Origin: Arabidopsis thaliana
Lineage: Eukaryota; Streptophyta; Magnoliopsida; Brassicales; Brassicaceae
Length of the DNA: 64,000 bases
Assembly (NCBI RefSeq): GCF_000001735.4
Contig: NC_003071.7
Span: 1,685,001 to 1,749,000 of the forward strand
Direction of reading: 5' to 3'
Part shown: piece by piece, positions 56,441-64,000 of the stretch
Layout of the letters: each line of letters starts with the position of its first letter
How positions within the stretch are numbered: the first letter of the stretch is position 1
Notes under the pieces: model-generated
Database searches by the model: none
What the model saw: only the letters and a program-made list of their open reading frames with translations
What the model was told of the DNA's origin: nothing
Translations under genes and position numbers: made by a program

Positions 56441-57049
56441 TAATTCACTCTAATGCCCTTTTCTCAATGCCCTTTTGCAACTCTACCCTTTTTTGCCATT
56501 TTCATTTCTACCCTTTCTAATACTTTTCTCCCCAAATTACCCTTAATGAGCTACCCACAGACCTAATTCATTTCTTCACTCTCTCTCTTCTTCTTCCATC
56601 GGAAATTGTGAATGTCGTTGAATCCCATGCCGTCGGAAATAGTGAGTTTACTCGCCGTGAAAACCCATCTTCGCCGTCGTAAGTAGAGCTGTGTGTCGCC
56701 GTCGAATCTCTTACGTTTCCCAGGTTTGATTTTATAATGTTAGCTTAAATCTTCGTTTTCGAATTGGTTTATTCGATTTTTGTTGTTGATTATGTGAATT
56801 CGTTATTTGAATCCTGATTCAATCGACAGTTTGACATTTGCTTCAGCTTCGAATTTGAATTTTGTTTGAGATTTGATGATTGAATTTGTTTCTAAAATCC
56901 TTGTACATTCGTTATACTGTTCTAAAATCCTTTTGAATTCGTTATACTGTTTCGTGATAGATTTGCTTATGTGAATTCGTTATACTATTTCGTAATAGAT
57001 TTTGATTCTGATTTAGTGTTTACCTCTTTTGCATATGCTTTCGTGATAG

Positions 57050-57340
57050 ATCTATGCCACTTACGCTTTAAAACGATTTGTAAACCATGTTAACCACTTT
57101 TCAAAGCTTTTAAAATCCCTTGTAAATTATTCTATGCTACTTACTTACGCTTTAAAACGATTTGTAAACCATGTTAACCACTTTTCAAAGCTTTTAAAAT
57201 CCCTTGTAAATTATTCTATGCTACTTACTTACTCTTTAAAACGATTTGTAAACCATGTTAACCACTTTTCAAAGCTTTTAAAATCCCTTGTAAATTATTC
57301 TATGCTACTTACTTACTCTTTAAAACGATTTGTAAACCTT
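57050..57340 (+). repeat. 84-bp tandem repeat upstream of the transposase
   Basis: About 3.4 copies of an 84-base unit starting TCTATGCTACTTACTTA (unit starts at 57131, 57215 and 57299, with a shorter one from about 57050). Each contains AAACGATTTGTAAACCATG and TTTTAAAATCCCTTGTAAAT. It lies just before the transposase ATG. Confidence 0.85.
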
Positions 57341-57408
57341 TCTTCTCTTTGTAGTGACAGTGTTTTTGTGGCTGTTGATTTTGTTGTTATTTATCTTATC
57401 AGGTTATA

Positions 57409-60150
57409 ATGCTAGAATTGTATTCTGTTTGTGCCTTGTGGAAGTTGACAAACAATATGACTTGGGAATTTGAATTAGACATTGAATTAGGAGCTTCTTT
57501 AGTGCTCATTGATGAGCACATTACCTATCACGCGTTGGTTGATATTCTTGTAGAGGATTTTCAAATAGATAGTTCAACCAATTCTTTGAAGCTTAGTTAC
57601 AAGTTAGTCTCCACGTCTACAACCATACAATCTCATCCTCTTTATATTAGGAACGATAGACTGCTTGCAACTTTTATGCACAAATTCTCACAGAGTGGAG
57701 GATTGCTTCAGTTATGTTTGACTGTAGAGCAAATTTCTGTGACAGTTGAGCAGGTTTTTCAATAACCTTCTTGTGTTATAATTTTAAAAATCCTTGTAAA
57801 ATCATTATTAAGTCAGTGATTGTGCTTATTACAGGCTGAGCCTACTTCAAATCCTTTTGTTTCTCATTCTATCCCTAATGCTCAGGTACTAATCGTTTTA
57901 AAAATCCTTGTAAAATCATTATTAACGTTTTTAAACCCCTTTTAAAAATCCTTGTAAAATCATTATTAACGTTTTTAAACCCCTTTTAAAAATCCTTGTA
58001 AAATCATTATTAAGTCAGTGATTGAGTTTATTACAGGCTGAGACGACTTCATATCCTTTTGCTTCTCATTCTGCATCTACTACTCAGGTAATAATCCTTT
58101 TAAAAAATCTTGTAAAATCATTATTAACGTTTTTAAACCCCTTTTAAAAATCCTTGTAAAATCATTATTTAAGAAAGATTGATGTTTGAGGTAAGCTTTT
58201 TATTTTGGCAGCCGAGGTTAACCTCTAGGATTATTGAGGCGTGTGTATCTGAAACATCTAGTATTCTTGATCAACAGTATTCTAGTTCTGCGTTTTCAAC
58301 TGGTCTAAGTGATGCTGATTCTTTGTTTATTGGAAAATTTTTCAAAGACAAAGATGAAATGGTATTCACGTTGCGGATGTCTGCAGTGAAGCACAGCTTT
58401 GAGTTTCATACAGTGAAATCAGATCTCACGAAGTATGTTCTTCATTGTATTGATGAAAACTGTAGTTGGAGACTACGTGCAACTAGGGCTGGTGGATCCG
58501 AGAGTTATGTTATTCGGAAGTATGTTAGTCATCACAGTTGTGACTCTTCATTAAGGAATGTTAGTCATCGTCAAGCATCTGCAAGGACATTAGGAAGATT
58601 GATAAGTAACCATTTTGAAGGAGGAAAACTTCCCCTCAGACCTAAACAGCTGATAGAAATATTTAGAAAAGATCATGGAGTTGGAATCAATTATTCGAAG
58701 GCTTGGAGAGTTCAAGAACATGCAGCAGAACTTGCGAGGGGTTTACCTGATGATAGTTTTGAGGTTTTACCGAGGTGGTTCCACAGGGTACAAGTGACGA
58801 ATCCAGGTTCTATCACTTTTTTCAAAAAAGATTCTGCTAATAAGTTTAAGTATGCGTTTCTGGCTTTTGGTGCATCAATTAGAGGTTATAAGTTGATGAA
58901 AAAAGTCATATCTATTGATGGTGCCCATCTGATATCAAAGTTTAAAGGGACTTTGCTTGGTGCCTCAGCTCAGGATGGGAATTTTAATTTGTATCCTATT
59001 GCTTTTGCAATAGTTGACTCTGAAAATGACGCGTCATGGGACTGGTTTTTGAAGTGTTTGCTGAATATAATCCCTGATGAGAATGATTTAGTTTTTGTGT
59101 CTGATCGAGCTGCTTCTATTGCAAGCGGACTTTCAGGGAATTATCCACTTGCTCATAATGGACTTTGCACTTTTCATTTGCAAAAAAACTTGGAAACCCA
59201 TTTCAGAGGTTCTTCACTTATTCCAGTTTACTATGCGGCTTCTAGAGTTTACACGAAGACAGAATTTGATTCTTTGTTCTGGGAAATCACTAATAGTGAT
59301 AAAAAGTTAGCACAATATCTTTGGGAGGTAGATGTTAGGAAATGGTCTCGAGCTTATTCTCCTTCAAATCGGTACAACATCATGACATCTAATCTAGCTG
59401 AATCTGTTAATGCCTTGTTGAAACAGAACCGCGAGTATCCGATTGTTTGCCTATTTGAGTCAATCAGATCTATTATGACAAGATGGTTTAATGAGCGACG
59501 TGAAGAGAGTAGTCAACATCCGTCTGCTGTTACTATAAATGTAGGGAAGAAAATGAAAGCGTCATATGATACTTCAACACGATGGCTTGAGGTTTGTCAA
59601 GTTAATCAAGAAGAGTTTGAGGTAAAAGGAGATACCAAAACGCATTTGGTTAATCTAGACAAAAGGACTTGCACATGTTGTATGTTTGATATTGATAAAT
59701 TTCCTTGCGCACATGGAATTGCTTCTGCTAAACATATCAATCTGAACGAAAACATGTTTGTTGATGAGTTTCATTCTACTTACAAGTTTTATCTCTATTC
59801 TTCACAACTTTACAGGCATTTTTAAATGTTTTAATATCTCTTTTTATGGTTTTATCTGTGTTTATGTGGTTTTAATCTCAGTTTACATCGCTGTAATTTA
59901 TAGGTGGCGTCAAGCATATTCAAAGAGCATTCACCCAAATGGTGATATGGAATATTGGGAGATTCCAGAAACTATTAGTGAAGTTATTTGTCTCCCACCT
60001 TCTACTCGTGTACCTAGTGGCAGACGGAAGAAAAAGAGGATACCTTCTGTTTGGGAGCATGGACGGTCTCAGCCAAAACCAAAATTACACAAATGCAGTA
60101 GGTGTGGTCAGTCGGGTCACAACAATTCAACTTGTGTTGCTGCAATTTAG
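57409..60150 (+). CDS. MuDR/SWIM-type MULE transposase (VANA-like)
   Basis: Five exons: 57409-57753, 57835-57885, 58037-58087, 58212-59815 and 59904-60150. They join in frame to 765 residues with no stop. The N-terminus is a PB1-like region (about 1-110). Exons 2 and 3 are near-duplicates of 17 codons. The MuDR DNA-binding domain follows (CIDENCSWRLRA, then H-H-S-C). The DDE/RNase-H core has SIDGAHLISKFKG (first Asp) and VFVSDRAASIASGL (second Asp), with a candidate Glu in SNLAESVNALL. The SWIM zinc finger reads CTCCMFDIDKFPCAHG, and a CCHC knuckle (CSRCGQSGHNNSTC) closes the protein. The last intron uses a GC donor (ACAG/GCATTT). All catalytic residues are present and no break is visible, so it may be autonomous. 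Confidence 0.92.
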
Positions 60151-60972
60151 ATATATCTTTATCTCCAAAGAATTGAATATTGTTGGGTTTTTTAATATTT
60201 TCTTCATTGTGTCGTGTCATTACTCTCGTTTGTTAAAATTACTATCAAACTTTTACAAGTAATTTTGAAGGTTATTCCAATATTTTACCTTTTAAAATCT
60301 CTTGTAAGATCCTGTTTAAAACGTCTGTTTAAATCCTTTTAAAATACCTTGTAAATCTTTCGTTATGCCACTTACATATACTTTAAACGATTGTAAATCA
60401 AGTTAAACACTTTTACAAGCTTTTAACTTGAATCTTTTAAAATGTCTTGTAAGTCGTTTACTAAAATTACTATCAAACTTTACAAGTAATTTTAATAGTA
60501 ATTCCAATAATTTACCTTTTTAACATATTTTGTAAAAGCCTGTTTAAAATGTCTTTGAAAATCCTTTTAAAATACCTTGTAAATATTTCGTTATGCCACT
60601 TACATATACTTTTAACAATTGTAAATCAAGTTAAACACTTTTACAAGCTTTTAAAATCTCTTATAAATCAGTTTCTGACATTAACTTATTCTTCTTAAAC
60701 GATTGTTAATCAAGTAAACCCCTTTTAAAAGCTTTTAAAATCCCTTGTAAATCATGCTTTACCACTTTATTATCCTTAAAAACCGATAGCAAACCATGTA
60801 AGCTGTTTATGCCTTTAAAATCACTTGTAAATCATGACAATTCTTATAAAACCATAAACAGTTGACAATAGTAAAGCATTTTGATTAGATTTGACAGTCA
60901 TAATTAAAATACAAGTACAATCATAGATTCCAAATAACAAAAGTAAAATAAACATGTTTGAAATAAGTCAGT
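60151..60972. repeat. Motif-rich spacer between transposase and J-domain gene
   Basis: Two copies of a roughly 228-base unit start near 60238 and 60466 (ATTACTATCAAACTTT... AAGTAATTTT). Each contains several TTTTAAAATnCCTTGTAA words and the phrase CTTACATATACTTT. More single copies continue to 60840. No gene on either strand. Confidence 0.75.
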
Positions 60973-63900
60973 CTAAATAACTAAATCCATTTTTGCCTTA
61001 GTAGCTCTGTCCTTCTCTACCTGCAAATAAAATTCAACCTGTAAGTTATTTTTTGCATAACAATAATATTCAAGTTTTTAAAGATATATCGTTATACAAA
61101 AGAAGAGTTTAACACTAACCATTATTATCTTGCAGATTTGTTCAGCTAGGTATTTCACTTCTGGATGAGCTCGAGGCAGTTTGTCAGGATGAATGAGTAA
61201 CGTTGCTTTCTTTAATGCTAATTTGTATTTCTTCTCGTCCCACATTTCCCAAATTTCGACTTTTTGCCATTTACTGTCGGGCCAAAGAATCTGAAATGTA
61301 AAAATTCCAGAATGATTAGAATTAAAATCTTTTGCAGCAAAACAATGATGTAATTTAACTTACTTTTTCAAGTGACGATAGTAGATCTCTTATTAATTTG
61401 TTTTTCGCCCATTTTTTAACTTTTACGCCAATTTCTTCCATTACTTCCTGACTCAACATGACCGGCGTCAAAGGAGTTTGAACTGATACAAAAAAAAAAA
61501 AAAAAAAAATATTTAGAAGTTGTTTATCAAGGCAAATCATCTGTGAATGTAAAAAGAACTTACGACTGCTCTGTCCCTGGGGGATTTCTTCTTCTTGCGT
61601 AGAGAGTGGTGTTTGATTAACATCTTCATCATCTTTCTTGGTCTCTCTTGGAACCTGTAAACAAAAACATCAAAACAAATTTTTATTTTTTGACAATTTT
61701 ATCATGTCTTTTTAAACAATTAAGGAATGCAGACCTCTGTTGTTTCTTCTTTTTGAGGTTGTGATTCTTTCTCGGTGGGTGCAGTCCCATTATCTTCATC
61801 ATCTGACAAAATTACATATGCTTCTTGATCTTCAGTCTCATCATGTTCATCATGTTCTTCTACGTTTTCTTCTTTTGGAACCTGTAAACCAAAACATCAA
61901 AACAAATTTTTATTTTTTGACAATTTTATCATGTCTTTTTAAACAATTAAGGAATGCAAACCTCTGTTGTTTCTTCTTTTTGAGGTTGTGATTCTTTCTC
62001 TGTGGGTGTAGTCCCATTATCTTCATCATCTGACAAAATTACATATGCTTCTTGATCTTCAGTCTCATCATGTTCATCATGTTCTTCTACGCTTTCTTCT
62101 TTTAAAACCTATAAACCAAAACATCAAAACAAAATTTTTATTTTTTGACAATTTTATCATGTCTTTTTAAAAAGTTAAGGAAAGCAGACATTTGTTTCTT
62201 TTTTTTTTTTTTGTGATTCTTTCTCTATGGGTGCAGTATCATTATTTTCATCATCTGACAAATTTATATACGCTTCTTGATCTGCAACATCATTATATTC
62301 ATCATGTTCTTCTACTTTTTCTTCTTTTCCTTCTTCTCTTTCCATTTCTTCATCGCCTTGTTTGGGATTCTCTTTTTTTTTCTGTTTCTTCAACATTGCA
62401 AGTAGAATGATGATCTCTGTATTCAACCTGTATAAATAATTACAAGTTCCCAAATACAAGCCAGGACACAGTTATTAGTCATGTAAATCACTTTTAAAAA
62501 GCTTTTAAAATCCGTTGTAAAATCTTATCGAACACTGCCTACCCTTTAAAAACGAATTTCAATCTTTTAAAACCCCATTAAGAAGTCTTTAAAATCCCTT
62601 ATAAATACATATCTAACACTGCCTATCTTTTTAAAACGGTTAAAAATCTTTAAAACACGATTTATAAGCTTTTAAAATCCCTTGTAAAAACACATACCTT
62701 TTCTTCTTCCTCTTCTTTTCCTTCTTCCTCTTGCTTTTCTTCTTCCCCTTCCATTTCTTCATCGCCTTGTTTGGGGATTTCTTGTTTTTCTGTCCCTTCA
62801 TCGCCTCTGTATTCAACCTGTATATAAAATTACAAGTTTTATAACTACAAGTTACTCATGTAAATCACTTTTTAAAAAGCTTTTAAAATCCGTTGTAAAT
62901 ACTTATCGAACACTGCCTATCCTTTAAAACGAATTTAAATCTTTAAAACCCCCATTAAGATGTCTTTAAAATCCCTTGTAAAAACACATACCTTTTCTTC
63001 TTCCTCTTCTTTTCCTTCTTCCTCTTGCTTTTCTTCTTCCCCTTCCATTTCTTCATCGCCTTGTTTGGGGATTTCTTGTTTTTCTGTCCCTTCGTCGCCT
63101 CTGTATTCAACCTGTATATGAAATTATAAGTTTTATAACTACAAGTTACTCATGTAAATCACTTTTTAAAAAGCTTTTAAAATCCGTTGTAAATACTTAT
63201 CGAACACTGCCTATCCTTTAAACCGAATTTAAATCTTTAAAACCCCATTAAGATGTCTTTAAAATCCCTTGTAAAAACACATATCTTTTCTTCTTCCTCT
63301 TCTTTTCCTTCTTCCTCTTGCTTTTCTTCTTCCCCTTCCATTTCTTCATTGCCTTGTTTGGGGATTTCTTGTTTTTCTGTCCCTTCGTCGCCTCTGTATT
63401 CAACCTGTATATAAAATTACAAGTTTTATAACTACAAGTTACTCATGTAAATCACTTTTAAAAAGCTTTTAAAGTCCGTTGTAAAATCTTATCGAACACT
63501 GCCTATCCTTTAAAAACAAATTTCAATCTTTTAAAACCCCATTAAGAAGTCTTTAAAATCCCTTGTAAATACATATCTAACACTGCCTATCTTTTAAAAA
63601 CGGCTAAAAATCTTTAAAACACGATTTATAAGCTTTTAAAATCCCTTGTAAAAACACATACCTTTTCTAATTCCTCTTCTTTTCCTTCTTCCTCTTGCTT
63701 TTCTTCTTCCTGCTCCTTTTTTTCGTCCTCTTCTTTTTGTTCTTCTCTAGTATAACTGGCAGGAACTCTTTCGATGCCTAAATAGCCCTCCAGCCTTCCA
63801 ACTTTCTTCTTAAGAACCTCCCAATTTTCATATACCAGTTTTACCTTCTCACCAAAGGACATTGATTTCCTTTTTCTGCTTTGATGCACAACTGTTTCAA

Positions 63901-64000
63901 TTGCAGGTTTCAAGACATGATCAATTCTTCCTTGATGTCCTTGTTCCACTTGAATCCATCTCTGACACCAATCCTTCTTGCTCATTCTATATCCTTTGAT
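60973..64000 (-). CDS. MULE accessory protein with acidic repeats and auxilin-like J-domain, 5' partial
   Basis: Exons in transcription order: 64000(edge)-63662, 63404-63285, 63111-62992, 62817-62698, 62427-62190, 62108-61962, 61881-61735, 61654-61564, 61482-61364, 61290-61120 and 61020-60973. The first visible exon has WCQRWIQVEQGHQGRIDHVL, KVKLVYENWEVLKKKVGRLE and a Glu-rich tail. Three 40-codon exons (VEYRGDEGTEKQEIPKQGDE...) and two 49-codon exons (...DQEAYVILSDDEDNGTAP) are tandem duplicates. The last three exons give VKKWAKNKLIRDLLSSLEK, ILWPDSKWQKVE, LALKKATLLIHPDKLP and VEKDRATKAKMDLVI. This is the layout of the auxilin C-terminal J-domain, including HPD. The exon at 63404-63285 has lost its GT donor (now AT), and the 238-base exon needs an acceptor 13 bases downstream to stay in frame. 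Full function is unknown; the start lies outside the window. Possibly AT2G04970. Confidence 0.72.
61735..62427 (-). repeat. Tandem exon-intron duplication with 227-base spacing
   Basis: The exons at 61735-61881 and 61962-62108 are both 147 bases and nearly identical, and their introns match. A third, diverged copy forms the first part of 62190-62427. Unit spacing is 227-228 bases. In the third copy the unit is fused with a 40-codon-type exon and the intron between them is gone. Confidence 0.85.
62698..63404 (-). repeat. Tandem exon-intron duplication with 294-base spacing
   Basis: Three exons of exactly 120 bases at 62698-62817, 62992-63111 and 63285-63404 with near-identical introns; spacing is 294 and 293 bases. 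Introns contain ACAAGTTACTCATGTAAATC, CTTATCGAACACTGCC and the motif TTTAAAATCCCTTGTAAA. A related, more diverged unit follows to 63661. Confidence 0.88.

Follow-up and report, generated by a model that had tools for sequence, protein, structure and literature searches.

A Mutator-like element of Arabidopsis thaliana with a DUF1985 gene that ends in an auxilin-type J domain

Background

The described systems closest to the locus considered here are the anti-silencing VANC proteins of VANDAL elements, through which a VANDAL family loses DNA methylation, and the Ulp1-carrying VANDAL genes of the Kaonashi/KIU kind. As set out in passages of Hosaka 2017 (PMC5735166), the motifs of VANC21 lie mainly in noncoding DNA, in one orientation and in high-density arrays. 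With VANC as it appears in those passages (PMC5735166) the present element family has in common a DUF1985 domain, a tandemly repeated variable region and same-orientation arrays of noncoding motifs; it differs in that the DUF1985 domain of its J-domain gene (hereafter the J gene) is weakly similar, DUF287 is absent, the motif is its own and the protein ends in a J domain. Most captured host domains are pseudogenes. Sections of a 2026 review (PMC13317346) name the Kaonashi/KIU Ulp1 as the plant case with lasting conservation, and add that KIU-carrying VANDALs recognise their own motifs. The Kaonashi/KIU genes, as those sections present them (PMC13317346), resemble the J gene in that a DUF1985 gene within a Mutator-like element has taken up a domain from the host, and a DUF1985-Ulp1 gene that neighbours the J gene is itself of this kind; in contrast to them, the J gene has captured a J domain, and the Ulp1 found here differs at the three catalytic positions. 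The J domain would be the second such captured domain after the Kaonashi/KIU Ulp1, on a class of genes that contains VANC.

On the host side, excerpts of two reports describe J-domain systems acting at methylated DNA: SILENZIO (SLN), together with MBD5/6 and HSP70s, acts in silencing (PMC8616336), and DNAJ1/2, recruited by SUVH1/3, are activators (PMC11139477). Given that Arabidopsis has J proteins working both for and against silencing at methylated DNA, a DUF1985 protein with a J domain that would draw Hsp70 to the repeats of its own element is a reasonable candidate for an anti-silencing device. The J domain itself is best compared with those of plant auxilin-like proteins, namely PDB entry 3ag7, which we take to be an Arabidopsis-type auxilin-like J domain, and six loci of the A. 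thaliana genome. In host auxilin-type proteins this is the part that recruits the Hsp70 chaperone, whose ATPase it stimulates. The element J domain has the same segment order, the HPD and two introns in common with these, but is 33-39% identical to the host domains in the genome search, has its final helix replaced and is partnered with DUF1985. A description of a J domain in a transposon gene was absent among the matches listed from open PMC text, mostly titles and openings of abstracts, with Hoen 2006 (Kaonashi) and Fu 2013 (Hiun) outside that scope; likewise, the word 'DnaJ' does not occur in the main texts of PMC5735166, PMC10398659, PMC6446971 and PMC13317346, which are VANDAL, MULE or capture papers. 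Here we describe a gene of a VANDAL-like element that codes for a DUF1985 protein with a captured auxilin-type J domain, which, in the reading that we prefer with confidence a little short of even, would bring Hsp70 to the chromatin of the element.

Results and discussion

Identification of the J domain

The window, by which we mean the whole 64,000-nucleotide stretch of DNA analysed (C2:1685001-1749000), contains the 3' part of the J gene, the last exons of which are as follows:

60973..61020, minus strand: last exon of the J gene, with the tail VEKDRATKAKMDLVI and the stop, replacing the final helix of auxilin J domains
61120..61290, minus strand: J-domain exon B, which includes ILWPDSKW, helix II, the HPD and AEQICKIIM in that order, with the intron positions of 6/6 host auxilin-like loci
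61364..61482, minus strand: J-domain exon A, KKWAKNKLIRDLLSSLEK, with PDB and profile matches
61564..61654, minus strand: acidic linker exon, in phase 1 into exon A

The initial annotation had recognised three consecutive minus-strand exons with correct phases, and this is upheld by the splice sites: the exons at 61482-61364, 61290-61120 and 61020-60973 splice in phase, with GT donors on the first two, AG acceptors and a TAG at the end, and the exon at 61654-61564 joins exon A in phase 1 through GT/AG sites. In the window copy the spliced peptide ends in VKVKKWAKNKLIRDLLSSLEK, ILWPDSKWQKVEIWEMWDEKKYKLALKKATLLIHPDKLPRAHPEVKYLAEQICKIIM and VEKDRATKAKMDLVI, joined in this order and followed by the stop. 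The auxilin-like succession of segments that had been noted is likewise real as far as the motifs go, but their assignment to three exons does not stand, as a single exon, the middle one, holds ILWPDSKWQ, KKATLLIHPDKLP and LAEQICKII.

When the PDB was searched with the window J peptide using phmmer, 3ag7_A was recovered with E=5e-13, followed by five sequences from auxilins with E between 1e-6 and 2e-5; the sole further match up to E=10 was a designed protein (0.067). Against a host-auxilin profile, built from the 6 J domains of A. thaliana auxilin-like genes and one mammalian fragment, the spliced peptide scored 59.0 bits (E 6e-17) and the unspliced ORF of the middle exon 43.8 bits; the top score among 2000 shuffles was 9.9 bits and that of any other window ORF of at least 30 aa was 7.1. 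The match to 3ag7, together with 59.0 against 9.9 bits, rules out a chance resemblance, and both searches bear out the auxilin-type identity proposed at the outset, which was to be given up if a profile revealed no similarity to J domains. A search of the window with Pfam DnaJ, the other check then suggested, gave no match at the J exons; however, two host auxilin J domains also fall below the 27.8-bit cut-off (23.3 and 21.4 bits), and this test is thus too blunt.

From these matches we conclude that the exons within 60973..61482 encode an auxilin-type J domain. The HPD between helices II and III is present in the window copy and in 11 of the 13 copies overall. Relative to host auxilin J domains, two loops are each two residues shorter in the element, and the tail encoded by its last exon is unlike the host EAWNKFN.

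The element and its copies

The A. thaliana genome was searched over 119.66 Mb in 7 contigs, and J exons were found at 13 places, with 85-97% identity over query residues 70-129. These copies were surveyed in stretches of ~10 kb, one for each place and two for the window copy. The J gene proved to be part of a recurrent arrangement: a transposase is convergent with it in 12/13 copies (missing from L052), its own DUF1985 exon lies upstream in 11/13 (missing from L041 and L051) and a Ulp1 exon lies further upstream in 11/13 (missing from L048 and L051). Thus, the same fusion, which the initial annotation had proposed to look for in other copies, is indeed repeated among them. Within the window the element comprises, besides the J gene:

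56838..64000, no strand assigned: part of the element within the window (approximate), continuing to about L039:8092
58173..59825, plus strand: main open frame of the Mutator-like transposase (MULE 57.2 bits, DBD_Tnp_Mut 40.6, SWIM 35.2), convergent with the J gene
59898..60150, plus strand: probable last exon of the transposase, with the CCHC knuckle CSRCGQSGHNNSTC, recognised by eye

Exon 1 of the J gene, which encodes DUF1985, and the DUF1985-Ulp1 gene lie in L039, outside the window. The window transposase is 34% identical over about 500 aa to that of L053, which by its position is presumably the Hiun element. Mutator-like and VANDAL elements have a target-site duplication of about 9 bp at defined ends; none of 9-10 bp was detected at the ends of this element, both of which are approximate, the right one being near joined coordinate 72092.

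The J region also matches three A. thaliana proteins, P0001-P0003, at 93-97%, and the gene models of P0002 (At2g14140) and P0001 (UniRef Q9MAQ5) place DUF1985, acidic repeats and the J region in one protein. The Pfam domains above cut-off in P0001-P0003 are DUF1299 (3/3) and DUF1985 (2/3), with nothing else. Whole auxilin has clathrin-binding and kinase/PTEN-like parts, and these are not among the Pfam matches of the three proteins. We take the arrangement of the copies to mean that the J exons belong to a Mutator/VANDAL-like element and not to a neighbouring host gene.

The splice sites of the J exons are intact in 13/13 copies, and the HPD is altered in two, to HPN in L049 and to HRD in L051 (in the frameshifted L044 it was read by shifting frame). 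Stops or a frameshift disrupt the J exons in 5/13 copies (L044, L045, L048, L051 and L052), and L046 has lost the terminal stop, with the J exons open to the stop in 7/13.

Anatomy of the J gene and damage in the window copy

The J gene encodes, in this order, DUF1985, acidic tandem exons with cores resembling SUMO-interacting motifs (SIM-like cores) and the J domain. Upstream of the acidic linker exon the window holds:

61728..61880, minus strand: tandem exon unit that falls within Pfam DUF1299 and has YVILSDDED as its SIM-like core, borders by eye
61961..62108, minus strand: tandem exon unit with SIM-like core YVILSDDED, borders by eye
62189..62427, minus strand: exon with a third SIM-like core, YINLSDDEN, and a one-base frameshift in the window copy, borders by eye
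62698..62817, minus strand: acidic 40-aa tandem exon of a 294-bp exon-intron unit
62992..63111, minus strand: acidic 40-aa tandem exon
63285..63404, minus strand: acidic 40-aa tandem exon, its donor GT lost in the window copy
63662..64000, minus strand: exon 2 of the J gene, extending past the window to L039:105

The window copy accordingly has three of the acidic 40-aa tandem exons (294-bp unit) in addition to a three-copy exon-intron repeat of 227 bp. The frameshift at 62427-62189, judged against the frame of relatives, and the lost donor mean that this copy makes no whole protein unless those exons are skipped, and its J gene is probably non-functional. The anatomy of the gene as described here we regard as practically certain.

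Capture from a host auxilin-like gene

Six auxilin-like loci of the A. thaliana genome (L054-L059) served as the host comparison, their intron positions being deduced from GT/AG sites and continuous homology. At 6/6 of these loci the J domain is interrupted after LLSTLQY (LLSSLHI in L056) and after an EKVFDLLK-type segment, both in phase 0, and the two introns of the element J domain are at the identical codon and phase, whereas the upstream boundary of the domain differs between element and host. As both internal introns are common to the host loci, it was genomic DNA that was captured, and retro-capture of a spliced message is ruled out. In a tree with a midpoint root only, four element rows stand on one long branch apart from six host rows, the capture branch having a length of 2.18 changes per column; we read this as an element J domain that is old, fast-evolving, or both. 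The suggestion that a Mutator-like element had captured or fused a host J domain is thus sustained by the introns matching 6/6 host loci and by 13 copies in the same arrangement, and we conclude from gene structure and tree that the domain was captured with its introns, long ago, from a host auxilin-like gene.

Selection and decay

Comparison of the copies by pN/pS showed no clear departure from neutrality for the J domain, DUF1985 exon 1, exon 2 or the transposase. The J domain has a ratio of 0.92 over 13 copies and of 1.22 over the 12 other than L052; DUF1985 exon 1 gives 0.56 (11 copies) and 0.49 once L052 is removed, exon 2 gives 0.48 (11 copies) and 0.89 once L052 is removed, and the transposase gives 0.67 (10 copies). 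The lowest p, 0.0475, belongs to DUF1985 and was reached with one of the three mutation models. Given that the test is non-significant for the transposase as well, the copies may simply be decaying; the pattern is in keeping with inactive copies that have recently begun to decay, and is hardly informative on an active lineage.

The absence of detectable purifying selection on the J domain among copies is what would be expected if it were a passenger, that is, a transduplicated host fragment, of the kind seen in many Mutator-like elements, which now forms the 3' terminus of a transposon gene and hitchhikes with it, having no Hsp70 function. This is a serious alternative, only somewhat less likely than the reading that we prefer, and it is also favoured by the change of HPD in 2/13 copies, by the replaced last helix and by a J fusion found in A. 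thaliana alone. Against it, the frame is still open in 7/13 copies after ~2 changes per column: of 3000 neutral simulations that started from one host sequence, 3.3% were still free of stops at 38% identity, a chance of ~0.03, and the open frame on the deep branch offers a modest argument for past selection. Also against it, the element keeps 18/34 host-invariant columns, HPDK included, compared with 9-15/55 of the variable ones (p 0.0003-0.014), a comparison that is biased in this direction, as a variable column can fail to match a given host with or without selection. The splice sites of the J exons, intact in 13/13 copies, are a further point against it. An AlphaFold model of P0001 (30 rows) is poor, with a mean pLDDT of 43 and J-region blocks at 32-55, the helices being in plausible order. 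We give even chances that at least one of the intact copies has a J domain able to work with Hsp70.

SIM-like repeats and the Ulp1 neighbour

The 227-bp unit codes for EAYVILSDDEDNGT or EAYINLSDDEDND, inside Pfam DUF1299, and the units number one to three per copy. All 29/29 rows from 12 copies have their core, Y-[VIA]-[IN]-L, and the three rows of L048 are without it. A SUMO-interacting motif consists of a hydrophobic core followed by acidic residues, and the YVILSDDED repeats look like such motifs. In the excerpted account of MOM1 (PMC6084981), its SIM (VVCLS) binds SUMO in yeast two-hybrid, yet is dispensable for silencing. This calls for caution in reading the repeats as SIMs.

The gene next to the J gene contributes one further feature:

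L039:2959-3640: Ulp1 part of the neighbour gene (Pfam 70.9 bits)

An active Ulp1 protease has a His-Asp-Cys triad. Where five other Ulp1 copies of the genome (L060-L064; L065, without a clean ORF, was left out) have H, D and C, the neighbour has C, E and S. The H and D positions are C and E in 11/11 copies with a match, and the C position is S in 10/11 and F in the remaining one (L052). These substitutions suggest that the neighbour Ulp1 is likely to be a pseudo-protease. Comparison of its Ulp1 domain with the PDB gave no useful match.

DUF1985 and the noncoding motif array

The DUF1985 domain of the J gene was detected at 62.9 bits (Pfam cut-off 35.1), and its similarity to the VANC21-like protein of L053 is weak, with E 1e-4 in a two-sequence comparison. 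DUF287, the second domain of VANC, is absent from the J gene in a Pfam search with the same library that, as a positive control, gave 68.3 bits for DUF287 and 104.5 bits for DUF1985 in the L053 gene. Between the DUF1985 gene and the transposase of L053 there is also a short ORF on the minus strand (L053:6497-6934) with a zinc-finger-like stretch, CPCG...CEKF, possibly the VANB of Hiun.

The element has noncoding repeats with motifs of its own:

57059..57338, no strand assigned: noncoding 84-bp tandem repeat with the motif CAAGGGATTTTA
57059-57338, 60226-60760, 62498-63645 and in L039: stretches of the 20-mer motif TTTACAAGGGATTTTAAAAG

The motif CAAGGGATTTTA occurs 20 times in the 15-kb element, 20/20 in noncoding DNA (42% of the element being exonic by a hand-made exon list), and 0 times in the surrounding 58 kb; within each of the 13 stretches it is on a single strand. 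It is absent from L053, where the VANC21 motif YAGTATTAY has 11 matches, and conversely the VANC21 and VANC6 motifs, as defined in PMC5735166, have none in the window element. The 20-mer TTTACAAGGGATTTTAAAAG has 507 exact matches in the genome, and its reversed control 0. This noncoding array resembles the targets of VANC and might supply candidate binding sites. Among the 100 places of TTTACAAGGGATTTTAAAAG listed, many are short islands in both orientations, away from the 13 copies; these are perhaps non-autonomous derivatives.

Proposed function and its alternatives

Recruitment of Hsp70 to element chromatin, the reading that we prefer, would proceed in two steps: the DUF1985 part, the SIM-like repeats, or both would hold the protein at the chromatin of the element, and the J domain would call Hsp70 there to dismantle or re-set silencing or transposition complexes. 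A role of the J gene specifically in anti-silencing is somewhat unlikely, and help with assembly of the transposase may be an alternative role. Several results count against the preferred reading: purifying selection on the J domain is not detected among present copies, the HPD is changed in 2/13 and the J exons are disrupted in 5/13, the final helix is replaced, the window copy is damaged, DUF287 is absent, four diverged relatives (below) have no J match, and the J fusion was found in A. thaliana alone. A J domain carried by a transposon gene might give a mobile element a novel means of acting on the silencing machinery of its host. It also opens to test, in a laboratory plant, the question of whether silencing is contested at the step of Hsp70 recruitment.

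A more elaborate possibility, which we consider improbable, is a recruiter of Hsp70 guided by sequence or SUMO. Here the DUF1985 protein would place the J domain on the motif arrays of the element, Hsp70 would dismantle silencing complexes or mimic the DNAJ1/2 activators of the host, and the dead Ulp1 partner would bind SUMO uncut. If true, a transposon would here be equipped with an anti-silencing system based on chaperones.

We give a still slimmer chance to a degenerate or decoy J domain, with the fold kept and perhaps the binding of Hsp70 or clients, which would compete with host J proteins, such as SILENZIO of the MBD5/6 complex, instead of cycling productively. The presence of host J proteins on both sides at methylated DNA, with SLN silencing and DNAJ1/2 activating in the excerpted accounts (PMC8616336, PMC11139477), would offer such a decoy its competitors, and the neighbouring Ulp1 seems to have lost its activity as an enzyme with its fold retained; the HPD, however, is retained in 11/13 copies. 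Finally, a separate host gene or an annotation artefact beside the element is scarcely credible and is ruled out by the 13 element-linked places of the J exons, 12 of them with the transposase, and by the models P0001 and P0002, which unite DUF1985 and the J domain in one protein.

Relatives within and beyond A. thaliana

A query with the DUF1985 region of P0002 recovered 42 proteins, including the three from A. thaliana, and the organisms, where named, are Arabidopsis, Brassica, Raphanus and Sinapis. The nearest outside A. thaliana are Brassica and Raphanus DUF1985 proteins (P0004-P0025), at 34-43% identity. By precomputed Pfam assignments many of the 42 have Agenet and two have Ulp1, and the HPD is found in 3/42, all from A. 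thaliana, and in 0/39 others. The DUF1985 genes of this group seem, from these domain combinations, to carry exchangeable chromatin- or SUMO-linked domains, of which the J domain would be one. P0004, P0009 and others, from Raphanus and Brassica, are examples of the relatives bearing Agenet.

A search of proteins with the J region (candidates of ~350-1115 aa) returned the three A. thaliana proteins and none from other species, and one with the unspliced ORF of the middle exon (~51-163 aa) returned no candidate protein. Transposon genes are often omitted from annotation, and the absence of the J fusion elsewhere is thus weak evidence.

In the genome search, four diverged relatives of the DUF1985 exons of the J gene were without a J-domain match:

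C3:13340018-13341932 and C3:13464088-13465573: diverged relatives, DUF1985 pieces 69-94% identical, no J match
C2:4371632-4374964: diverged relative, 68-73% identical where pieces are full-length, matches to linker and SIM, no J match
C1:15795717-15796214: diverged relative, 57-65% identical, no J match

These J-less relatives could represent the state before capture or a loss of the J domain. A further region, C4:4572241-4587602, contains an array in which fragments match exon 2 of the J gene at about 58-72% identity.
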